Below are positions 49,232 through 59,956 of a stretch of DNA of 64,000 nt, piece by piece (within the stretch, counting starts at the first letter, position 1; each line of letters begins with the position of its first letter). The DNA is from Methylobacter sp. (GTDB lineage Bacteria; Pseudomonadota; Gammaproteobacteria; Methylococcales; Methylomonadaceae). The stretch spans positions 124,001-188,000 of the forward strand of contig NZ_JAUXVR010000025.1 in assembly GCF_030680395.1 (NCBI RefSeq), read 5' to 3'. The position numbers and the translations under genes are program-made. The notes under the pieces were generated by a model. That model made no database searches, was not told the origin of the DNA, and saw nothing but the letters and a program-made list of their open reading frames with translations.

Positions 49232-50377
49232 GTGAAGAAAACAAAGCAACTGTTCGCAGGTCTGATCTTAATGGCTTTAGGCCTAGGGACAGCGCAGGCG
49301 GAATATACGCTCAATTTAATGAAAGGGGTTACAAAGGTCAGTAATGACATTTATGACCTGCACATGCTGGTCTTATGGATTTGTGTATTTATAGGTATCG
49401 GTGTGTTCGGAACTATGTTCTACTCGATTTACCACCATCGTAAATCAAGAGGACATAAAGCGGAGCAGTTTCATGAAAATACGACGGTTGAAATTATTTG
49501 GACCATTATCCCGACCTTGATTTTGATTGGCATGGCCATTCCAGCCACGAAAGCCATGATAGAGCTGGATGATGTGCAAGAATCCGAAATGTCTATTAAG
49601 GTAACCGGACATCAATGGAAGTGGGAATATGACTATCTTGATAATGGGATTCATTTTTTTAGCAGCCTGGATGAAGCCAGTAATAAAGTGCGCCAAGTGG
49701 GTTCAGGTATCGATCCTAGATCCGTTCCTCATTACTTGTTGAATGTTGATAAACCGTTAGTTATTCCAACTAAGAAGAAAATTCGTTTTGTATTTACCTC
49801 AGCAGACGTAATCCATTCATGGTGGGTGCCGGATCTGGGTTGGAAAAAAGATACTAATCCTGGTTTTATCAATGAGTCATGGACTTCTGTTGATGAGCCG
49901 GGTACTTATCGTGGTCAATGTACTGAGCTTTGCGGTAAGGACCATGGTTTTATGCCGATCGTTGTGATTGCAATGAACGAACCTGATTACAATGCCTGGG
50001 TAGACCAACAAAAAGCGGCTGTGGTTGCTGAAGCGGGCTCGGCTAACAAACAGTGGACTACCGAAGAACTGGTTGCTAAAGGTAAAACTGTTTATGAGAC
50101 CAGTTGTGCATCCTGTCATATGCAGGACGGTGCAGGGTTGCCTGGTACTTTCCCGGCGCTAAAGGCAAGTCCGGTGGTAACCGGCGATATTAATGCTCAA
50201 GTTAAGCTGGTCTTTGAAGGAAAAGGCATGATGCCGGCTTTCGGAAAAATGTTAAGTGCGGTTGATTTTGCTGCAGTCATAACATATACCCGTAATGGTC
50301 TGGGTAATTCGGTCGGAGATTCCATTCAACCTTCCGCTATTCAGACTCTGCAATCGGCAACACCGGCGGCAGATTAA
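49232..50377 (+). CDS. coxB: Cytochrome c oxidase subunit II with fused cytochrome c domain
   Basis: The 381-aa protein has a signal peptide, two membrane helices (about 40-60 and 85-105) and a CuA domain with HSWWVPDLGWK and CTELCGKDHGFM. A C-terminal cytochrome c domain with CASCH (about residue 293) follows, so the enzyme is of the caa3 type. The GTG start at 49232 follows GAGGAG. It accepts electrons for the oxidase encoded downstream. Confidence 0.95.
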   Translation: MKKTKQLFAGLILMALGLGTAQAEYTLNLMKGVTKVSNDIYDLHMLVLWICVFIGIGVFGTMFYSIYHHRKSRGHKAEQFHENTTVEIIWTIIPTLILIGMAIPATKAMIELDDVQESEMSIKVTGHQWKWEYDYLDNGIHFFSSLDEASNKVRQVGSGIDPRSVPHYLLNVDKPLVIPTKKKIRFVFTSADVIHSWWVPDLGWKKDTNPGFINESWTSVDEPGTYRGQCTELCGKDHGFMPIVVIAMNEPDYNAWVDQQKAAVVAEAGSANKQWTTEELVAKGKTVYETSCASCHMQDGAGLPGTFPALKASPVVTGDINAQVKLVFEGKGMMPAFGKMLSAVDFAAVITYTRNGLGNSVGDSIQPSAIQTLQSATPAAD

Positions 50378-50441
50378 AAATGAATAAGTCATTGCGTTGT
50401 TATCGATCTAATCTTTTTTATAGTTTCAAGAGGTATGAAAT

Positions 50442-52058
50442 ATGTCTGCTGTAGTCGCTGAACATGATGATCATCACGATCATCACGAACATGGTCCTGC
50501 CAAGGGACTATTAAGATGGGTTATTACCACCAATCATAAAGATATCGGTACGTTATATTTGCTGTTTGCGCTGGCGATGTTTTTTGTCGGCGGCACAATG
50601 GCAATGATTATTCGTGCCGAATTATTTGAACCGGGTATGCAGTTTGTTAATCCCCAGTTCTTTAATTCAATGACCACTATGCACGCCTTGGTTATGGTAT
50701 TCGGTGCAGTTATGCCTGCATTCGTCGGCTTGGCCAACTGGATGATTCCAATGATGATCGGCGCTCCGGATATGGCATTGCCGCGTATGAATAACATGAG
50801 CTTCTGGTTGCTGGTTGCCGGTGTTTTACTGCTGGCAAGCACCTTGTTTATGGAAGGCGGCGCACCTGCCAGCGGTTGGACCTTGTATCCACCGTTAGTA
50901 TTGCAAACCGGTAAGGCATTGCCTTTCGCGATTTTCTCTGTGCATTTGCTGGGTATCTCGTCAATCATGGGTGCAATTAATATCATTGCCACTATTTTCA
51001 ATATGCGTGCCCCCGGCATGACATTGATGAAAATGCCGATGTTTGTTTGGACCTGGTTGATTACTGCTTTCTTGTTAATCGCTATCATGCCTGTTTTTGC
51101 AGGCGCAGTGACCATGTTGTTAACAGACAAATTCTTCAATACCAGCTTTTTTGATGCGGCCGGTGGTGGTGATCCGGTTCTTTATCAACACATTTTCTGG
51201 TTTTTTGGGCATCCTGAAGTTTATGTAATGATTCTGCCTACCTTCGGTGTGGCTTCTACCATCATTCCGGTATTTGCTCGCAAACCTTTGTTTGGCTATA
51301 GCTCTATGGTTTATGCGACTGCTTCAATTGCATTTTTGTCATTTATCGTCTGGGCTCACCATATGTTTACGGTCGGCATGCCAATAGCAGGCGAGTTATA
51401 TTTCATGTATGCAACCATGTTAATTGCAATTCCTACCGGGGTTAAAGTTTTTAACTGGACTGCGACCATGTGGAAAGGTTCGATGACTTTTGAAACACCG
51501 ATGTTGTTTTCGATTGCTTTCGTCGTTTTGTTTACGATGGGTGGATTCACCGGATTGATGATGTCTGTTGCGCCGGTTGATTTTCAGTATCACGATACTT
51601 ATTTTATTGTTGCACATTTCCATTACACGCTGGTTCCAGCTTCAGTCTTTATATTGATGGCTGCCGGCTATTTTTGGCTGCCTAAATGGACAGGGCATAT
51701 GTATGACGAAAGAATCGGTCGGTTGCATTTTTGGTTGTCCGTGGTATCAGTAAATATCCTGTTTTTCCCTCAGCATTTCCTGGGACTTGCCGGTATGCCG
51801 CGCAGAATTCCTGATTATGCCGTTCAATTTGCGGATTGGAATATGATTTCCAGTATTGGCGGTTTTATATTCGGTGCCAGCCAACTGCTGTTCCTGTATA
51901 TCGTTATCGATACAATCAAAGGCGGAACTGGCGAAAAAGTAACTGATGAAGTGTGGGAAGATGCTGCCAAGCATAGCTTGGAGTGGACTTTGCCATCACC
52001 ACCGCCGTATCATTCTTTTACTACGCCACCTACAGTTATACCGACTGAGCATATCTAG
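50442..52058 (+). CDS. coxA: Cytochrome c oxidase subunit I
   Basis: The 538-aa protein has twelve membrane helices and a His-rich N-terminal tail ([12 protein letters not shown]). The heme-copper ligands are all present: HPEVY with the cross-linked Tyr, [10 protein letters not shown], and [12 protein letters not shown]. It is a canonical A-type oxidase catalytic subunit. It lies 64 bp after coxB. Confidence 0.97.
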
Positions 52059-52118
52059 GGTATTGCATTCAGGTTGCTTTCAAAAGCAACCTGCTTAGAT
52101 AACGTATCAGGTGAAATA

Positions 52119-52217
52119 ATGAATACCAAACAAAAAAATATTTTGACAGCAGTGATTTTGATTACAATTGCGGTCACTATTTATGTTTTTGCAGTGATAA
52201 GAGCTGTTTCTCAATGA
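52119..52217 (+). CDS. Putative 32-aa cytochrome oxidase assembly peptide
   Basis: The ORF encodes [12 protein letters not shown] followed by one membrane helix and ends RAVSQ. It starts after CAGGTGAAATA and overlaps the ctaG start by four bases (ATGA). Small single-helix proteins of this kind, named cytochrome oxidase small assembly proteins, occur between coxA and ctaG in proteobacteria. Its tiny size makes it easy to miss in automated annotation. Confidence 0.65.
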
Positions 52218-52756
52218 ACGAAGGCGTTACTCAAAAAAACACTAAGTTAGTTCGGATATTGGTGTTTGTTGTATTGGGAATGTTTGGTTTTGGCTATGCT
52301 CTGGTTCCTCTTTATGATGTTTTGTGTGAAGTAACAGGACTCAATGGAAAAGTTGAATCGTCCGCTATTAAGGAAGTTAGCTACGAAGTTGATAAAAACA
52401 GAGAGATCACCGTAGAGTTTATGACTGCACTGAATGAGGCAACACCGATGGTGTTCCATTCAGAAATAAAAAAATTAAAAGTTCATCCGGGTGAATATTA
52501 CACGGTGAATTTTTATGCGGAAAATAAGACCGATAAAGTAATGGTTGCTCGGGCAATTCCAAGTATTTCTCCCGGAGCAGCTGCTGAATTTTTTAAAAAA
52601 ACAGAGTGTTTTTGCTTTTCAGAACAGACATTTAGAGCGCGAGAAGGCAGGACTATGCCGGTGCGTTTTGTTGTTAATCCTGAATTACCCGAGCAATATA
52701 AAACAATTACACTTGCATATACATTTTTTGATAATACTGAAACATCAGTGAAATGA
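52214..52756 (+). CDS. ctaG: Cytochrome c oxidase copper chaperone CtaG (Cox11)
   Basis: The 180-aa protein has one N-terminal membrane helix with [15 protein letters not shown] after it. The Cox11 copper site CFCFSEQ lies near residue 134. It delivers copper to the CuB center of subunit I. It sits between coxA and coxC, as in many gammaproteobacteria. Confidence 0.95.
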
Positions 52757-52768
52757 GAGAGGAAGGTC

Positions 52769-53632
52769 ATGTCTACAAGTAACGAGTATTACATTCCGCA
52801 TAAAGCTACCTGGCCGGTCATTGGAACTGCCGGTTTGGTGATGATGCTGGCTGGATTTGCAAATTATTTAAATGGTTCGGCAGCCGGTTCGGCCTGGATG
52901 TTGTTGGGGCTAACGGTATTTATTGTTATGCTTGCCGGGTGGTTCACATTGCAGTCCGGGGAAAGTGAATCAGGCATGTATAGTACGCAGGTAGGTATTT
53001 CCTATCGTATGGGTATGATGTGGTTTATCTTTTCGGAAATCATGTTTTTTGCCGTTTTCTTCGGTACACTTTGGTATACGCGTAATTTATCGGTGCCATG
53101 GCTGGGCGGGGAAGGTGCTAGAGCAGCAACCAAAGAGCTATTGTGGCCTTCTTTCGAAGCAGTCTGGCCTACCAATGGTCCCGGTAAAGTCGGCGGCGAA
53201 TTCGAGCCTATGGGAGCGTGGGGATTGCCTTTCCTGAATACCTTAATTCTGCTGACTAGCGGCGTATCTTGTACTTGGGCGCATCATGGCTTGCTGGCAA
53301 AAAACCGCGATCAGTTAATTAAAGGCTTGGCGGCTACTGTAGGTTTGGGCCTCTTGTTCGTGTCATTCCAGGCATTCGAATATCATGAAGCGTATACTGA
53401 AATGGGTTTAACTTTGGGTTCAGGTATTTATGGATCTACCTTTTTCATGTTGACCGGTTTTCACGGTTTCCATGTTTGCGTAGGGGCTATTATTCTGAGC
53501 GTTGTTTTATTTCGTAGCTGGAAAGGTCACTTTAAACCGGAAAATCATTTCGCTTTTGAAGCCGCAGCCTGGTATTGGCATTTCGTTGACGTGGTATGGT
53601 TAGGATTATTTATATTTGTTTATGTAATTTAG
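52769..53632 (+). CDS. coxC: Cytochrome c oxidase subunit III
   Basis: The 287-aa protein has seven membrane helices, an FSEIMFFAVFFG block and the typical C-terminal AAWYWHFVDVVWLGLFI. It binds and stabilises subunit I. GAGAGAGGAAGG precedes the start. A strong terminator follows. Confidence 0.96.
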   Translation: MSTSNEYYIPHKATWPVIGTAGLVMMLAGFANYLNGSAAGSAWMLLGLTVFIVMLAGWFTLQSGESESGMYSTQVGISYRMGMMWFIFSEIMFFAVFFGTLWYTRNLSVPWLGGEGARAATKELLWPSFEAVWPTNGPGKVGGEFEPMGAWGLPFLNTLILLTSGVSCTWAHHGLLAKNRDQLIKGLAATVGLGLLFVSFQAFEYHEAYTEMGLTLGSGIYGSTFFMLTGFHGFHVCVGAIILSVVLFRSWKGHFKPENHFAFEAAAWYWHFVDVVWLGLFIFVYVI

Positions 53633-54061: not shown

Positions 54062-54784
54062 ATGAAGTTTAAAATCATTCCAACATTAGTTTATTTGTGC
54101 CTGTTACCAGCATTGATTGCGCTCGGAATGTGGCAATTAGATCGCTCAGAACAAAAACGGGCATTTCTCAAAGCGCAAGAACAATCGGCCGCAACTGAAA
54201 CGCTGCATTTGTCGACGGTTCTTGAAAATAATACAGAAACACTGAGGTACAGAAATGTCGAGGCTATGGGGCGTTACGACGTGGCGCACCAGTTTTTGAT
54301 AGATAATCAAATCAGCGACGGAAGAGTAGGCTATTTTGTCTTGACGCCATTTATATTGACGGGGGAAACCAAGGCGGTTTTGGTGAACAGGGGCTGGATT
54401 CCTTTAAATAAAGATCGGTCGATTCTGCCTGATTTACAGATTAATAAGGCGGAAGCAATTATTACCGGACGGATTAATAATTTTCCAAGTGTTGGTATAA
54501 AATTAGCAGGGGCGGAAATTCCAACCGAGGGTTGGCCATCGGTAGTGCAGGTGGTTGATAGTGACGTTTTAGCTAAAAAATTAGGTTATTCATTATTTCA
54601 ATTCCAGATTGAACTGGCTAAAGAGTTACCTGATGGCTATAAGCGGGAATGGCATACATCAACCATTATGCAGCCCGAACAACATACGGCCTATGCAATT
54701 CAATGGTTTGCATTGGCATTGACACTAACGATACTATTTATTTGGTACAGTTTTAAAAACAACGATGCAAAATCAAAAAAATAA
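54062..54784 (+). CDS. SURF1-family oxidase assembly protein
   Basis: The 240-aa protein has terminal membrane helices (about 7-22 and 210-230) and SURF1 marks: GMWQLDRSEQKRAFL, RYRNVEAMGRYD, LVNRGWIPLNK and the final HTAYAIQWFALALTL. SURF1 helps load heme A into subunit I. It overlaps the next gene by 20 bases. Confidence 0.93.
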   Translation: MKFKIIPTLVYLCLLPALIALGMWQLDRSEQKRAFLKAQEQSAATETLHLSTVLENNTETLRYRNVEAMGRYDVAHQFLIDNQISDGRVGYFVLTPFILTGETKAVLVNRGWIPLNKDRSILPDLQINKAEAIITGRINNFPSVGIKLAGAEIPTEGWPSVVQVVDSDVLAKKLGYSLFQFQIELAKELPDGYKREWHTSTIMQPEQHTAYAIQWFALALTLTILFIWYSFKNNDAKSKK

Positions 54785-55361
54785 AAATCATATATTAATT
54801 CTGGTTATTTTTGGGATGTCGGTTATCCCCTTTTTAATCGCTTGGGGTTTAAAAGAAAATCCGCGGCTCCTAAAAGGGCAAACCAATCATGGGCAGTTAA
54901 TAACGCCGCCATTAACAACCGAGCGTGGTGATCTAACCGGCTTCGACCGGTTTTCAACTGATAATATGTCCGAGCTTGCCGGACACTGGCTGCTGGTAAA
55001 CGTCATTCCAAATGGCGATTGTAATGAATCGTGTGTGGAGGCTATTCATAAAACCAAACAGTTGCGGTTAATGCTGAATAAAGAATTGACCCGTACGCGT
55101 CGAATCGTCATGGTCTTAAAAGACGTTGCGCCGGAAACCGCGAGCAAGTGGTGGGAAGATGACAAGACCTTGTTAAGAGTTAAGCCCAATGATGCGGTTA
55201 TCAAGAAAATTGCCGCGATCAGGCAAGGCCATATTCCTGACGGGATGCTTTTGTTAATGGACCCGCTGGGTAATTTAATGATGCAGTATGAACCGGGTTT
55301 CGATCCTTACAACGTAAAAAGTGACCTTATGCATCTTTTGCGAATCTCACAAATTGGATAG
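54765..55361 (+). CDS. SCO-like thioredoxin-fold protein of the cox cluster
   Basis: The 198-aa protein has an N-terminal membrane helix (about 9-27). A thioredoxin-like domain follows with CNESC near residue 87, similar to the C-x3-C copper site of SCO proteins. PDGMLLLMDPLGNLMMQYEPG gives the typical cis-Pro/His region, although the expected His is not obvious. It probably helps copper or redox maturation of the oxidase. It lies between surf1 and ctaA, where this family is usual. Confidence 0.8.
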   Translation: MQNQKNKNHILILVIFGMSVIPFLIAWGLKENPRLLKGQTNHGQLITPPLTTERGDLTGFDRFSTDNMSELAGHWLLVNVIPNGDCNESCVEAIHKTKQLRLMLNKELTRTRRIVMVLKDVAPETASKWWEDDKTLLRVKPNDAVIKKIAAIRQGHIPDGMLLLMDPLGNLMMQYEPGFDPYNVKSDLMHLLRISQIG

Positions 55362-55372
55362 TGGAAAATAAA

Positions 55373-57367
55373 ATGTTTAGAAAAATAACTCTCTTTAGCG
55401 TTGTTTTAGCTTTAATAGTTATCGTAGCAGGTTCATACGTTCGGTTATCTGGAGCAGGTCTGGGCTGTCCTGATTGGCCTGGATGCTATGGACAGGCCAT
55501 TGTTAGCGAGCAAGCCGATTTTAAAGCGCATGCAGCGGAGGCATTTCCCGGTCAGACGCCCGATATTGAAAAAGCCTCGAAGGAAATGAGTCACCGTTAT
55601 CTGGCGGCAACCTTGGGCGTGACTGTCTTGTTGTTGGCGTTGCTTTCGTGGCGAGAACAACAAAGTCGCCGGGCAGTCGTTACGGCCGCATTGGGTCTGG
55701 TAATTTTAGTCGGATTACAGGCGGCTTTAGGCATGTGGGCCGTAAAATTGCATGCTATGCCGATTGTCGTAACCGGCCATTTGTTGCTGGGCATGATGAC
55801 TTTATGGCTGCTGTTCTGGTTGTATTTACGGGTTAACCCGAAAGCTTCGCTGCTTACAGTACGCGGCAATGGCTTGGCGTTGTTTGCCCGAGTTGCAATA
55901 GGGGTGTTGTTTTTAGAGATTGTTTTAGGCAGCTGGGTTAGCGCTAACTATGCCGCTTTAGCTTGTTCGGGATTTCCTCAATGTAATGGCGCATGGTGGC
56001 CTAAAGCGGATTATCAAACGGCGCTGGATTTATTTAGCGGCTTAAGCACAGGTTATACCGGCGTCATCGCATTCGATGCGCAAGTCGCCGCAAATTGGCT
56101 GCATAGGGTCGGTGCGATGGTTAGTTTTATCGTGCTTACGTTGTTGATGTTGAACGCGACATCGGCGCATCATCCAAAACCGGTCAGGCGAGCAGGCTTA
56201 TGGCTAAGTGTGCTGCTGTTGGCGCAGGTTGGCTCAGGCATTATCGGCGTCAAATTGGGGCAGCCTTTATGGGCGGCGATGGCTCATAATGCTTTTGCAG
56301 CATTGTTAATGTTGCCGTTGATTACTATCAGTTTTTACAGTCGATATGGTTATGTTGAAGAACTAAAGCGTCCCGTAGAAGTTGAGCCGCAACGAGAAGG
56401 TGTGGTTGTCCCTGCGGAGGAAGAAGTCTATCCGGTAGCGGAACCCGAGTCGTTATATTTACGCCTTAAGACGCAGTTAAAGCGCACCCGTTCCGGGCTC
56501 AGCGGAGTATTGGCGCATATCCCTATCGGTCGACAAGAAATTAACGAGGATTTGCTGGAGGAAATTGAAGCCAGTTTGTTAATGGCTGATATAGGCGTTG
56601 ATGCGACCACAGAAATAATCAAGCGTTTGACCGAAAGTGTTGAGCGCCACCAGCTTAATGACGGTGAGGCATTATCAGCCGCCTTAAAGCAAGAACTGCT
56701 AAGTATGCTCCAACCCTGTAGCAAGAATTTGCATATCCCCAAGCAGGATAAACCTTTTGTTATCCTGGTTGTCGGCGTCAACGGCGCAGGTAAAACCACA
56801 ACCATCGGTAAACTCGCCAAGCGCTTGCAAGCTCAAGGCCATAGCGTCATGTTAGCGGCCGGCGATACGTTTAGAGCCGCGGCTGTCGAGCAATTGCAAA
56901 CTTGGGGCGAGCGTAATAATATTCATGTGGTCGCACAGCATACCGGAGCTGATTCGGCATCCGTTATTTATGACGGCGTTCAATCCGCGCAGGCGAAAGG
57001 TATAGATGTTTTAATTGCCGATACGGCCGGGCGCTTGCATACAAAATCCAACCTGATGGACGAATTAAAAAAAGTAAAACGGATCATCAGTAAGCTGGAT
57101 GAAACAGCGCCTCATGAAGTGCTGCTGGTACTGGACGCCGGCACCGGGCAAAATGCCTTGTCGCAAACCAAACTGTTTAATGAGACTGTGGCATTGACAG
57201 GCTTGGTTCTGACCAAACTTGATGGCACGGCAAAGGGCGGTATTATTTTCGCTCTGGCTAAACAGTTCGAAATTCCCATTCGTTTTATAGGAATAGGCGA
57301 AGGTATTGATGATCTGCAGGATTTCGATGCAGATGCTTTTGTAAATGCATTGTTTGTTAAAGACTAA
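55373..57367 (+). CDS. ctaA-ftsY: Heme A synthase CtaA fused to signal recognition particle receptor FtsY
   Basis: A single open frame encodes two complete proteins. Residues about 1-330 are heme A synthase: eight membrane helices, GLGCPDWPGCYG and all four heme-ligand His (H78, H140, H248, H309, counted from GTG 55361). Residues about 365-668 are the FtsY NG domain: GVNGAGKTTTIGKLA, GDTFRAAAVEQL, DTAGRL and TKLDGTAKGG. A short acidic linker (about 335-362) replaces the usual FtsY A domain. ctaB is missing, and ftsE-ftsX follow as in normal ftsYEX operons. ATG 55373 fits the CtaA N-terminus better than GTG 55361. If real, the CtaA helices would anchor the SRP receptor. Confidence 0.85.
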   Translation: MFRKITLFSVVLALIVIVAGSYVRLSGAGLGCPDWPGCYGQAIVSEQADFKAHAAEAFPGQTPDIEKASKEMSHRYLAATLGVTVLLLALLSWREQQSRRAVVTAALGLVILVGLQAALGMWAVKLHAMPIVVTGHLLLGMMTLWLLFWLYLRVNPKASLLTVRGNGLALFARVAIGVLFLEIVLGSWVSANYAALACSGFPQCNGAWWPKADYQTALDLFSGLSTGYTGVIAFDAQVAANWLHRVGAMVSFIVLTLLMLNATSAHHPKPVRRAGLWLSVLLLAQVGSGIIGVKLGQPLWAAMAHNAFAALLMLPLITISFYSRYGYVEELKRPVEVEPQREGVVVPAEEEVYPVAEPESLYLRLKTQLKRTRSGLSGVLAHIPIGRQEINEDLLEEIEASLLMADIGVDATTEIIKRLTESVERHQLNDGEALSAALKQELLSMLQPCSKNLHIPKQDKPFVILVVGVNGAGKTTTIGKLAKRLQAQGHSVMLAAGDTFRAAAVEQLQTWGERNNIHVVAQHTGADSASVIYDGVQSAQAKGIDVLIADTAGRLHTKSNLMDELKKVKRIISKLDETAPHEVLLVLDAGTGQNALSQTKLFNETVALTGLVLTKLDGTAKGGIIFALAKQFEIPIRFIGIGEGIDDLQDFDADAFVNALFVKD

Positions 57368-57375
57368 AGAAGTTT

Positions 57376-58032
57376 ATGTTAAAGTTTGATAATGTCAGTA
57401 TGAGGTACCCTGGCGCAGGCGATGTCTTGCGTAATGTCAGTTTTCATCTGCAGCGCGGTGAAATGGCTTTTCTGACAGGGCATTCAGGGGCTGGAAAAAG
57501 CACATTATTGAAATTGATTGCTGTTATTGAGCGTTGCAGCCGGGGACAGGTTTTATTGGATGGTCAAGATCTCAATCAGGCTAAGGACAGACAGGTTCCT
57601 TTTATACGCAGGAAAGTAGGCTTGATTTTCCAGGATTACAAACTGCTACAGGACAGAACGGTTTTCGATAATGTGGCGTTGCCTTTAGTGATAGCAGGTT
57701 ACGGGCACCATGAAGTTTCCCGAAGGGTGAGGGCATCATTGGATAAAGTCGGCCTATTAGGCAAAGAAAGGAAATATCCCGCTGTCTTGTCCGGTGGCGA
57801 GCAGCAGCGGGTTGGGATTGCTCGGGCGGTGGTTAATAAGCCGCCGATGATTTTGGCCGACGAGCCAACCGGAAATCTCGATCCGGAATTGTCCGCAGAA
57901 ATCATGCATTTGTTTGAACAGTTTCAACAGGTTGGCGTCACTATATTGATTGCCTCGCATGATATTTCATTGATTGGACAAATGAATCATCGAATCTTAA
58001 AGCTGGATCACGGTCAGCTGGTTGCAAGTTAA
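57376..58032 (+). CDS. ftsE: Cell division ATP-binding protein FtsE
   Basis: The 218-aa ABC ATPase has Walker [10 protein letters not shown], signature LSGGEQQRV and Walker [12 protein letters not shown]. With FtsX it controls peptidoglycan hydrolases at the division site. It lies nine bases after the ctaA-ftsY frame and directly precedes ftsX. Confidence 0.96.
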
Positions 58033-59031
58033 ATGATGAAGCACGTTAAAAAAAAACCGGGTAAACAGGAGCCGCGCTGGCAAACCAAAATTTCCGGAGG
58101 GAATTTTGTCGATAAATTTCATGCTTATCGGAACCTTCATGCGCACGCGTTGTTTTCGAGTCTTGGGCGATTAGTCGCGTCACGATTCTCTTCTGCAATG
58201 ACGATCATTGTGCTGGCGATTGCCATTTCACTCGCCAGCGGCTTTTATATTCTGGTGGCCAACCTCCAGCAGTTGGCGGGCAATTTGGAAGCCAGTAATC
58301 AAATCTCTTTATTTCTTAAAGATGAGATTTCAGAAGCAAAGGCAAACAAGTTTGCAGCCAGCATCAGGCAAAATCCCGACATTCAGGAGGTTAAATTAAT
58401 TACCAAAGAGCAGGCACTGGAAGAGTTTCAGTTACACAGCGGATTCGGTGAAGCCGTAAAAGCCCTGGAAAAAAATCCGCTACCGATTGTTATTCAGGTG
58501 TTACCCAAAAATTCATTGGAAAACGAACAGGCGCTTGAGGTTTTAGTTGATGATTTTAAGCGCTCGGCAGAAGTTGATTTTGCCCAGATGGATATGCAAT
58601 GGGTCAAACGCCTGCAGTCTATTATGGAAGTGGCACGACGCGGTGTTATCCTGTTGAGTTTGTTATTGGGTGCGGGAGTGCTGTTTATTACTGCCAATAC
58701 CATACGCCTGGAATTGCATACTCGCCGAGATGAAGTCGTGATCGCAAAACTGGTGGGTGCGACCAACGGTTTTATTCATAGGCCGTTTTTGTACAGCGGT
58801 TTCTGGATTGGCTTTTTTTCCGGCGTGACTGCATGGTTTATTGTTACAACGATCATGCTGATTTTAAAACAACCTGTCGAAAAGCTTTCCAGACTTTATG
58901 ATGACGCTTTCCATGTGCTGTTTTTCGGCTTTACCGAAACCTTGGCATTGCTGTTCATCTCGTCGGTGTTAGGTGTGGTGGGTTCATGGATAGTACTGCA
59001 TTTCCAACTGCGGCAATTAAAACCCGAGTAG
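58033..59031 (+). CDS. ftsX: Cell division protein FtsX
   Basis: The 332-aa protein has a basic cytoplasmic N-terminus, a first membrane helix (about 55-75), a periplasmic domain and three C-terminal membrane helices. The block LHTRRDEVVIAKLVGATNGFI is typical of the FtsX-type permease fold. It starts immediately after ftsE. The stop is eight bases before the CIRCE element. Confidence 0.95.
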   Translation: MMKHVKKKPGKQEPRWQTKISGGNFVDKFHAYRNLHAHALFSSLGRLVASRFSSAMTIIVLAIAISLASGFYILVANLQQLAGNLEASNQISLFLKDEISEAKANKFAASIRQNPDIQEVKLITKEQALEEFQLHSGFGEAVKALEKNPLPIVIQVLPKNSLENEQALEVLVDDFKRSAEVDFAQMDMQWVKRLQSIMEVARRGVILLSLLLGAGVLFITANTIRLELHTRRDEVVIAKLVGATNGFIHRPFLYSGFWIGFFSGVTAWFIVTTIMLILKQPVEKLSRLYDDAFHVLFFGFTETLALLFISSVLGVVGSWIVLHFQLRQLKPE

Positions 59032-59038
59032 AAAATTA

Positions 59039-59065
59039 TTAGCACTCTTTCTTGCAGAGTGCTAG
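59039..59065 (+). promoter_or_regulatory. CIRCE (HrcA operator) upstream of rpoH
   Basis: TTAGCACTC, nine bases, then GAGTGCTAG. The CIRCE consensus is TTAGCACTC-N9-GAGTGCTAA, so 17 of 18 defined bases match. It lies between ftsX and rpoH, 33 bp before the rpoH ATG. HrcA binding would repress rpoH at normal temperature. hrcA itself is not in the window. Confidence 0.88.
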
Positions 59066-59098
59066 AATTCAAAAAAAGTTTTTTACATGGGAGTCTCA

Positions 59099-59956
59099 AT
59101 GAGTAACGCATTAGCTTTACCTATTAATTTATCGGTCGGAACATTCGACGCCTATTTAAATGTCGTCAGGCAAATGCCTAAATTGACAGTAGAACAGGAA
59201 CGCGAGTTAGCCTTAAAGTTTAGAGATGACGGCGATTTGGAAGCCGCACGCGAATTGGTGATGACCAATTTGCGCTTTGTGATTCACGTTGCCAGAGGCT
59301 ACAGCGGTTATGGCTTGTCTATGCCGGATATTATTCAGGAAGGTAATATCGGCTTGATGAAAGCCGTTAAACGTTTTGATCCTGATGTCGGCGTGCGTTT
59401 GGTTTCTTTCGCCGTACACTGGATTAAAGCCGAAATTCACGAGTATGTGATTAAGAACTGGGGCATTGTAAAAGTTGCTACAACCAAGGCGCAACGCAAA
59501 CTGTTTTTTAACCTGCGTAAATCCAAACAGGATTTAGGCTGGCTATCCAATGATGAGGCGGTGGCGATTGCCAAAGATCTTGATGTCGATGTCAGTGTTG
59601 TTTACGAAATGGAAAAACGCTTGGGCAGCAGGGATATGTCATTTGATATGCCGGTCGATGAATCAACGGAAGAAAGTTATGTTGCTCCAGCCAGCTATCT
59701 TCATCAGCACGGCGCCGATCCTGCGGTACTGCTTGAGAATTCGGATTGGGAAGGCCATGAGCAGGATTTATTGGCAGATGCGATGGCGGAGTTGGATGAA
59801 CGCAGCCTGGATATTCTTTCAAGCCGCTGGTTGATGGATAAAAAAGCTACATTGCATGAGCTTGCCGAACGCTACAATGTCTCTGCTGAGAGGATCAGGC
59901 AATTGGAGCAAAATGCGATGAAAAAGTTGAGAGCAGCGGTTGAACTTGCCGCTTGA
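59099..59956 (+). CDS. rpoH: Heat-shock sigma factor RpoH (sigma-32)
   Basis: The 285-aa sigma factor has the RpoH box QRKLFFNLR and region 2 (MPDIIQEGNIGLMKAVKRFDP). Its region 4 helix-turn-helix is ATLHELAERYNVSAERIRQLE. I prefer ATG 59099 because GGGAG lies five bases upstream; ATG 59087 would add four residues. It follows ftsX as in E. coli. The CIRCE element upstream adds HrcA control to the usual translational control of sigma-32. Confidence 0.96.
   Translation: MSNALALPINLSVGTFDAYLNVVRQMPKLTVEQERELALKFRDDGDLEAARELVMTNLRFVIHVARGYSGYGLSMPDIIQEGNIGLMKAVKRFDPDVGVRLVSFAVHWIKAEIHEYVIKNWGIVKVATTKAQRKLFFNLRKSKQDLGWLSNDEAVAIAKDLDVDVSVVYEMEKRLGSRDMSFDMPVDESTEESYVAPASYLHQHGADPAVLLENSDWEGHEQDLLADAMAELDERSLDILSSRWLMDKKATLHELAERYNVSAERIRQLEQNAMKKLRAAVELAA

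Follow-up and report, generated by a model that had tools for sequence, protein, structure and literature searches.

The window is a 64,000-nucleotide stretch of DNA. Among named organisms, its source is nearest to Methylobacter of the order Methylococcales, for example to M. tundripaludum SV96. ORF analysis of its forward strand reveals a single frame of 668 codons without a stop (55361-57367), in which heme A synthase (CtaA) is followed by the SRP receptor FtsY. The frame can be read from a GTG at 55361 (668 aa) or from an ATG at 55373 (664 aa). Residues M5-F6-R7-K8 are almost invariant in relatives and residues 1-4 are not, thus the ATG is the likely start and the ctaA-ftsY fusion gene spans 55373-57367 on the + strand. 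The genes coxB, coxA, ctaG and coxC of an aa3-type oxidase lie upstream (49232-53632, +). TIGR02866, TIGR02891 and NF003465 score above their cut-offs here, and coxC is recognised only through sub-cut-off matches to subunit III models. A SURF1 gene (PF02104) and a gene for a PA0111-like disulfide protein (NF058629, 48 bits, below the cut-off of 230) directly precede the fusion (54062-55361, +). Downstream follow ftsE, ftsX and rpoH (57376-59956, +; TIGR02673, TIGR00439 and TIGR02392, all above cut-off). The PA0111-like redox disulfide protein gene (54765-55361, a match below cut-off) is found just 5' of ctaA in 58 of 60 loci, fused and unfused, and its stop codon runs into the GTG at 55361.

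The COX15-CtaA profile (PF02628) matches residues 9-318 with 226.5 bits against a cut-off of 29.9, and profile positions 3-319 of 322 are covered, as expected of a full-length CtaA/Cox15. SRP54_N (PF02881, residues 390-446) and the SRP54 GTPase domain (PF00448, residues 465-665) are both above their curated cut-offs, and the ftsY equivalog TIGR00064 matches residues 394-665 with 374 bits (cut-off 260.7). The ffh and FlhF models remain below their cut-offs, which sets the NG domain apart from Ffh and FlhF. Alignment to 8aw5 and 6a2j, the latter being B. subtilis heme A synthase, places all four heme histidines (H78, H140, H248 and H309) and the catalytic Glu75 in the window copy. Both cysteine pairs, C36/C42 and C202/C208, are also present. 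By these sequence tests the protein is FtsY and also CtaA, and its CtaA part looks catalytically intact. The first-pass annotation, which described a complete CtaA and a complete FtsY NG domain in one frame, is borne out by the open frame, Pfam, NCBIfam and the residues.

In a predicted model of the protein, of moderate AlphaFold confidence (mean pLDDT 75.6, pTM 0.50), eight long CtaA helices are followed by a linker without structure (331-363) and then by a helix (365-375), and the NG domain is normal. The model and the 6a2j alignment divide the membrane part into two bundles. The N-bundle (TM1-4, residues 5-157; 55373-55831, +) is the substrate-heme half with C36/C42, E75, H78 and H140. The C-bundle (TM5-8, residues 171-328; 55871-56344, +) is the heme b half with C202/C208, H248 and H309. 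The flexible linker (residues 329-364; 56345-56452, +) has pLDDT values below 50 at 331-363, and its length and sequence vary among relatives; the stretch equivalent to residues 322-395 has a median of 76 aa (range 52-99) in 159 fusions. The predicted helix (residues 365-375; 56453-56485, +) sits at the place of alphaN1, the lipid-binding helix of E. coli FtsY, in an alignment with that protein. The N and G domains of FtsY (residues 390-665; 56528-57355, +) are defined by PF02881, PF00448 and TIGR00064 and by a Foldseek match to 6cqp with 61% identity. The 50 Foldseek matches listed are all SRP-type GTPases, and the search bears on the FtsY half, not on the CtaA half.

That an assembly or sequencing artefact joined two adjacent genes is close to inconceivable. 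Nothing speaks for it except the odd combination itself, and the same fusion is found in the complete isolate genome of Methylomicrobium sp. wino1 and in other isolates, e.g. Methylotuvimicrobium buryatense 5G. Fused frames up to 94% identical occur in other assemblies, among them that of M. tundripaludum SV96, which makes a frameshift or chimera very unlikely. The first-pass annotation had named a separate complete ftsY in this genome, with unfused genes in related strains, as a finding that would speak against the fusion. The genome search finds a single ftsY, with two other SRP-type GTPases whose TIGR00064 matches are below cut-off, and close relatives are fused too. A frameshift, a chimera and a second ftsY were rejected on the basis of the one ftsY, the fused relatives and the independent assemblies.

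We searched 219 genomes of the order, which was assigned as Methylococcales by its named relatives. Among them, 199 belong to families f1-f6; f7 and f8 are sister families. In 189 of the 199, one match runs across the junction or, where the DNA was read, one frame covers both parts. The fusion is present in 28 of 29 sampled f1 genera, and the one genus left, g5, is represented by a single incomplete genome without an FtsY-grade match. Beyond the 189, f1-f6 comprise ten genomes: G045, G207 with an FtsY frame of 292 residues, and eight in which these searches gave no FtsY-grade match (G004, G032, G101, G125, G131, G134, G145 and G214). When at least 250 residues ahead of FtsY are taken as fused, this holds for 159 of 163 FtsY frames, which were chosen in the main for matches that cross the junction. 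The other four are separate genes in G157 (f8), G167 and G182 (both f7), and G045 with a stop inside TM8. In G045 (genus g19, L128:451-2445; a MAG 75% complete) a TGA splits the fusion and the FtsY frame still starts with the remainder of TM8. The split is probably a sequence error, or else a recent re-split. FtsY frames of 331-367 residues are found in 17 of 18 f7 genomes (G196 lists none), and f8 has a frame of 350 residues in G157 and a partial one of 237 in G163. Separate ctaA and ftsY genes are thus kept in both sister families. In a class sample of 143 genomes, one per family, a spanning row appears among the matches listed in two members of the order only; 11 of the other 141 families, G257 included, have a best match no better than 1e-53 and count as lacking an FtsY-grade match. 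In a phylum sample of 100 genomes, the only spanning row among the matches listed is that of the window's own genome.

In a tree of FtsY alone (171 rows) the difference between fused and separate genes is explained by one change with an SH-aLRT of 88; this is a quick tree, in which 42 of 168 inner branches are starred and 58 open and the outgroup is not a clean side. One origin is favoured by this sequence comparison, not proved. The fusion is real and old and occurs in six families; far from being peculiar to this strain, it characterises most of the order. Strong PmoA-type matches are seen in many f1-f6 genomes and weaker ones in f7 and f8. A functional link to methane oxidation is not claimed, because some fused genomes, e.g. 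G154 and G161, show no PmoA-type match. At four loci (L111:6254-8845, L118:6410-9043, L081:6807-9131 and L082:8672-11032) open frames of 775-878 codons reach far 5' of the fused gene; these extensions overlie the preceding gene and are likely due to chance.

A comparison of gene orders suggests how the two genes came together. In the unfused sister loci L125, L126 and L127, ftsY-ftsE-ftsX-rpoH converges on ctaB-ctaA-disulfide protein-SURF1-coxC-coxA-coxB, and two M16 genes (located, like ctaB, with M16 and UbiA profiles) point away from ftsY-ftsE-ftsX-rpoH. Since an M16 gene also adjoins ftsY in 23 of 28 outgroup loci, this side of the arrangement is ancestral. The usual order in f1 is coxB-coxA-ctaG-coxC-SURF1-disulfide protein-ctaA::ftsY-ftsE-ftsX-rpoH, all co-directed with the exception of one small gene on the opposite strand, which we take to be DUF2909. 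One inversion, with one end at the front of ftsY and the other between ctaB and ctaA, converts the sister order to the fused order in a single step. Inversion of the ftsY-ftsE-ftsX-rpoH-ctaB segment would have put ftsY in frame 3' of ctaA, and it would have removed the front of the FtsY A domain at the same time. The other junction predicted by the inversion, with ctaB facing back and an M16 peptidase gene behind it, is observed in 2 of 57 fused loci, a count taken from short stretches. In L124 (f6) the ctaB-M16 pair directly follows rpoH; in L118 (f4) the pair is present, with ftsE, ftsX and rpoH not detected in between. The neighbourhood was reshuffled later in places, since coxA adjoins the fusion at 34 of 40 f1 loci (contig ends cut off some of the others) versus 5 of 17 f2-f6 loci, and ftsE is near the fusion in 11 of these 17. 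The first-pass annotation had noted the missing ctaB and proposed that a deletion joined the two loci. ctaB is indeed absent from this locus and lies elsewhere in the genome (L004, TIGR01473); the proposed inversion would have separated it from ctaA and so left the window locus without it. The deletion gave way to the inversion as the better fit, because the sister order is convergent, the predicted second junction exists in two fused loci and ctaB is retained.

The membrane parts of all 159 fusions were aligned and the key residues counted. In the N-half, C36 is kept in 113, C42 in 112, E75 in 52, H78 in 102 and H140 in 108. The key residues of the C-half are kept almost throughout: C202, C208 and H248 each in 156 and H309 in 157. 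Misalignment of highly diverged N-halves could shift single counts, hardly the contrast between the halves. All five catalytic and heme residues are intact in 41 of the 159 fusions, the window included, and at least one is lost in the other 118. These damaged fusions have lost E75, H78 or H140 in the catalytic N-half, while H248 is kept in 115 of them and H309 in 116. One of them, G010, retains E75 and has other residues in place of both N-half histidines. On the FtsY tree, if the ancestor was intact and no residue was regained, this amounts to about 23 loss events in the N-half, about three for the two C-half histidines and about two for the C-half cysteines; plain parsimony gives at least 13 changes between intact and damaged states. 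The mean frequency of the major residue is equal in both halves of the 41 intact fusions (N-half 0.655, C-half 0.661), and in the 118 damaged ones it is 0.359 for the N-half versus 0.543 for the C-half. Twelve CtaA columns are at least 90% identical in the damaged fusions, and all of them are in the C-half (G190, W192, C202, F205, P206, C208, P214, H248, R249, L285, L286 and H309).

According to PMC8239418, the C-terminal bundle of CtaA holds a b-type heme via two conserved histidines and the N-terminal bundle is seemingly the catalytic one. The same source states that the ECL1 cysteine pair matters for the activity of B. subtilis heme A synthase and the ECL3 pair does not, and in PMC7327177 the C-bundles of the Aquifex enzyme form the core of a trimer. 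Read against this published work on heme A synthase, what the fusions preserve is the heme b site together with the cysteine pair that matters least for activity. The first-pass annotation had suggested that the fusion joins oxidase assembly with protein targeting. Literally this is possible only where the enzyme half is intact, as in the 41 fusions that include the window's, and not in the 118 damaged ones. A coupling of heme A synthesis to targeting is unlikely as the general reason for keeping the fusion, because 118 of 159 have lost a catalytic or heme residue. As judged from these residues, a heme A synthase role of the fused protein is possible in the window's organism and unlikely in most relatives. 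For many of these genomes, annotation should not simply assume that the fused gene encodes a working heme A synthase.

The C-half has a few exceptions. H248 is missing in G057, G025 and G124, and H309 in G057 and G025, thus heme b is not strictly required everywhere. The ECL3 cysteine pair is missing in G057, G007 and G124. In genus g8 (L107:6207-7907 and L075:2729-4588; G057 and G007) FtsY has a membrane domain at the same position as in other fusions, but this domain has drifted strongly and its C-half cysteine pair is lost. CtaA is barely recognisable in G007, and in G057, one of the 159 fusions, BLAST no longer identifies the front part as CtaA. In these two genomes the domain may have been converted fully into a plain anchor. 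In genus g14 the N-half is mostly gone; the Pfam match of L311 begins at profile position 146. In its low-confidence predicted model (mean pLDDT 65, pTM 0.40) about six long helices remain, and this even number would leave FtsY in the cytoplasm.

Besides the fused gene, the window's genome carries a second, unfused CtaA (C33:175705-176598). Unfused CtaA is found in 73 of 76 genomes of the f1 sample, and only the fused one in G021, G047 and G069, all of g21. The second copies that were aligned (20 of 20) have Asn at the place of H60 and lack the second cysteine pair, and their sequences fit type 1.3 in Table 1 of PMC8239418. L151 is a further second CtaA of another type. One wider neighbourhood of a second CtaA was read (L132), and it contains no cox gene. 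Copy number was examined in 133 genomes, 115 of which have a fused sequence in the alignment. The fusion is intact in 4 of 5 genomes in which only the fused CtaA was found versus 26 of 110 elsewhere (Fisher p = 0.016, which overstates the evidence because the genomes are related). The exception, G164, is damaged although no other CtaA was found in it; this MAG is 85% complete, and both sampled congeners have two matches.

Several readings of the retained C-half have to be weighed. The single chain could be cut in the linker, or FtsY could start internally, to yield CtaA and an ordinary FtsY whose join served co-expression. The linker is indeed flexible, long and variable, and E. coli FtsY too has a poorly conserved region before its NG domain (PMC5533587). 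However, an in-frame ATG with a Shine-Dalgarno-like tetramer occurs in the linker of only 6 of the 159 fusions and none is conserved, in line with the first-pass observation that FtsY has no clear start of its own; with GTG and TTG counted as well, such starts occur in 40 of 159. Moreover, a free damaged CtaA beside a second CtaA should tend to vanish, yet the frame persists, and among the 118 damaged fusions H248 survives in 115 and H309 in 116. We consider such a polyprotein quite improbable.

The CtaA part could also be a mere greasy anchor, whose heme b residues persist because decay is slow or because folding requires them for reasons other than heme. For FtsY of E. coli, an unrelated membrane polypeptide is reported to be enough (Zelazny 1997, cited in PMC2780400). 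The low-confidence model of the g14 protein L311 retains an even helix set with most of the N-half gone, and changes in the C-half are tolerated in G057, G025, G124 and G007. Against a pure tether, the heme ligands and the disulfide are among the most conserved positions of the damaged copies, and about three (His) and two (Cys) losses in the C-half stand opposite about 23 in the N-half. This explanation appears rather unlikely. It shares much with the one we prefer, and this overlap, together with the weaker gene-order support, makes the preferred one somewhat less probable.

The explanation that we regard as reasonably probable is an old, genuine ctaA-ftsY fusion of most Methylococcales that arose by inversion and serves as a permanent polytopic anchor with a needed heme b bundle. 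The fusion itself, its distribution, the gene orders and the residue pattern are direct observations, from which we derive the single inversion, the topology, heme binding and the function. The eight-helix CtaA part, with its C-terminus in the cytoplasm, would hold the NG GTPase permanently at the inner membrane. An in-frame fusion of this kind, which the first-pass annotation expected to give FtsY a polytopic anchor, is supported by our analysis. The CtaA part would replace the peripheral front end of FtsY, and the alphaN1 helix and the GTPase would act as usual with SRP. In the three sister loci FtsY begins with a short MFGFGKKK front end, which is missing from the eight fusions compared. 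In E. coli FtsY the front motif makes a dynamic and alphaN1 a stable membrane contact (PMC5533587). Permanent attachment would thus take the place of the dynamic mode, and the stable alphaN1 mode would be kept. The C-bundle probably binds heme b, because the bis-His site and the periplasmic disulfide are kept in nearly every fusion; the receptor would require this heme to fold, to oligomerise or to be regulated, and the anchor would thus be more than a tether. Damage to the N-bundle, the half assigned to heme O to heme A chemistry, has recurred many times, for the most part in genomes with another CtaA that is not fused. Neither half looks damaged in the window's organism, so here one protein may serve as heme A synthase and as SRP receptor. 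We infer that a polytopic FtsY should itself depend on the targeting route that it serves.

Nearly all organisms have FtsY, and it has been debated whether this receptor needs to leave and rejoin the membrane. A comparison of the fusion with E. coli FtsY shows an NG GTPase that is about 61% identical, nearly all of TIGR00064 and an alphaN1-like helix, whereas the acidic A domain and the first lipid-binding motif are replaced by the eight helices of CtaA. The other C-half histidine of type 1.1 heme A synthase is presumably H216. Its equivalent and those of E57, H60, H123 and H278 are all present in the window copy, as are the eight long helices and two cysteine pairs given for this type in Table 1 of PMC8239418. 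Unlike type 1.1 enzymes, the fusion has a C-terminal SRP receptor, and 118 of 159 fusions have lost a catalytic or heme residue. PMC2780400 reports FtsY with a true transmembrane helix in Gram-positive bacteria and archaea; these receptors are likewise anchored permanently, while the anchor of the fusion is polytopic, enzyme-derived and probably heme-binding. The same design was used in the membrane-tethered FtsY engineered by Zelazny 1997 (cited in PMC2780400), whose transmembrane domain holds an FtsY reported to work in E. coli in vivo. In contrast to it, the CtaA fusion is natural, occurs in six families and has an anchor that keeps specific cofactor residues. The CtaA fusions named in Table 1 of PMC8239418 are fusions with CtaB, and FtsY does not occur in the text available from PMC9145763 or PMC8239418. 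No description of a CtaA-FtsY fusion was found in the titles and abstracts that our searches of open-licence papers listed.

If this reading is right, the receptor has long been fixed to the membrane in six bacterial families, and nature has carried out the engineering experiment of 1997. One half of the enzyme was repeatedly damaged and the heme b half retained, which amounts to a natural mutagenesis replicated many times. This pattern leads to a direct and testable claim, namely that protein targeting depends in some way on a heme-binding bundle. It is conceivable, though on present evidence doubtful, that the receptor is gated by heme b, with the C-bundle sensing either how much heme is available or the membrane's redox state and passing a signal to FtsY. 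If so, insertion of respiratory and methane-oxidising membrane proteins would be matched to the supply of cofactor or electrons. Where the N-bundle is damaged, an enzyme would then have become a regulatory anchor of the cytochrome b type for a machine that is nearly universal.

Whether many of these bacteria are supplied with heme A would hinge on the activity of the second CtaA. This copy (L002:1426-2475 (-); C33:175705-176598 in the window's own genome) has His60 changed to Asn and one cysteine pair, and its relatives are common in fused genomes. In genus g45, G214 has two unfused CtaA (one at C4:86507-87442) and no fused CtaA was found in it, and G203 carries an extra unfused CtaA (C13:504126-505070) besides the usual two.
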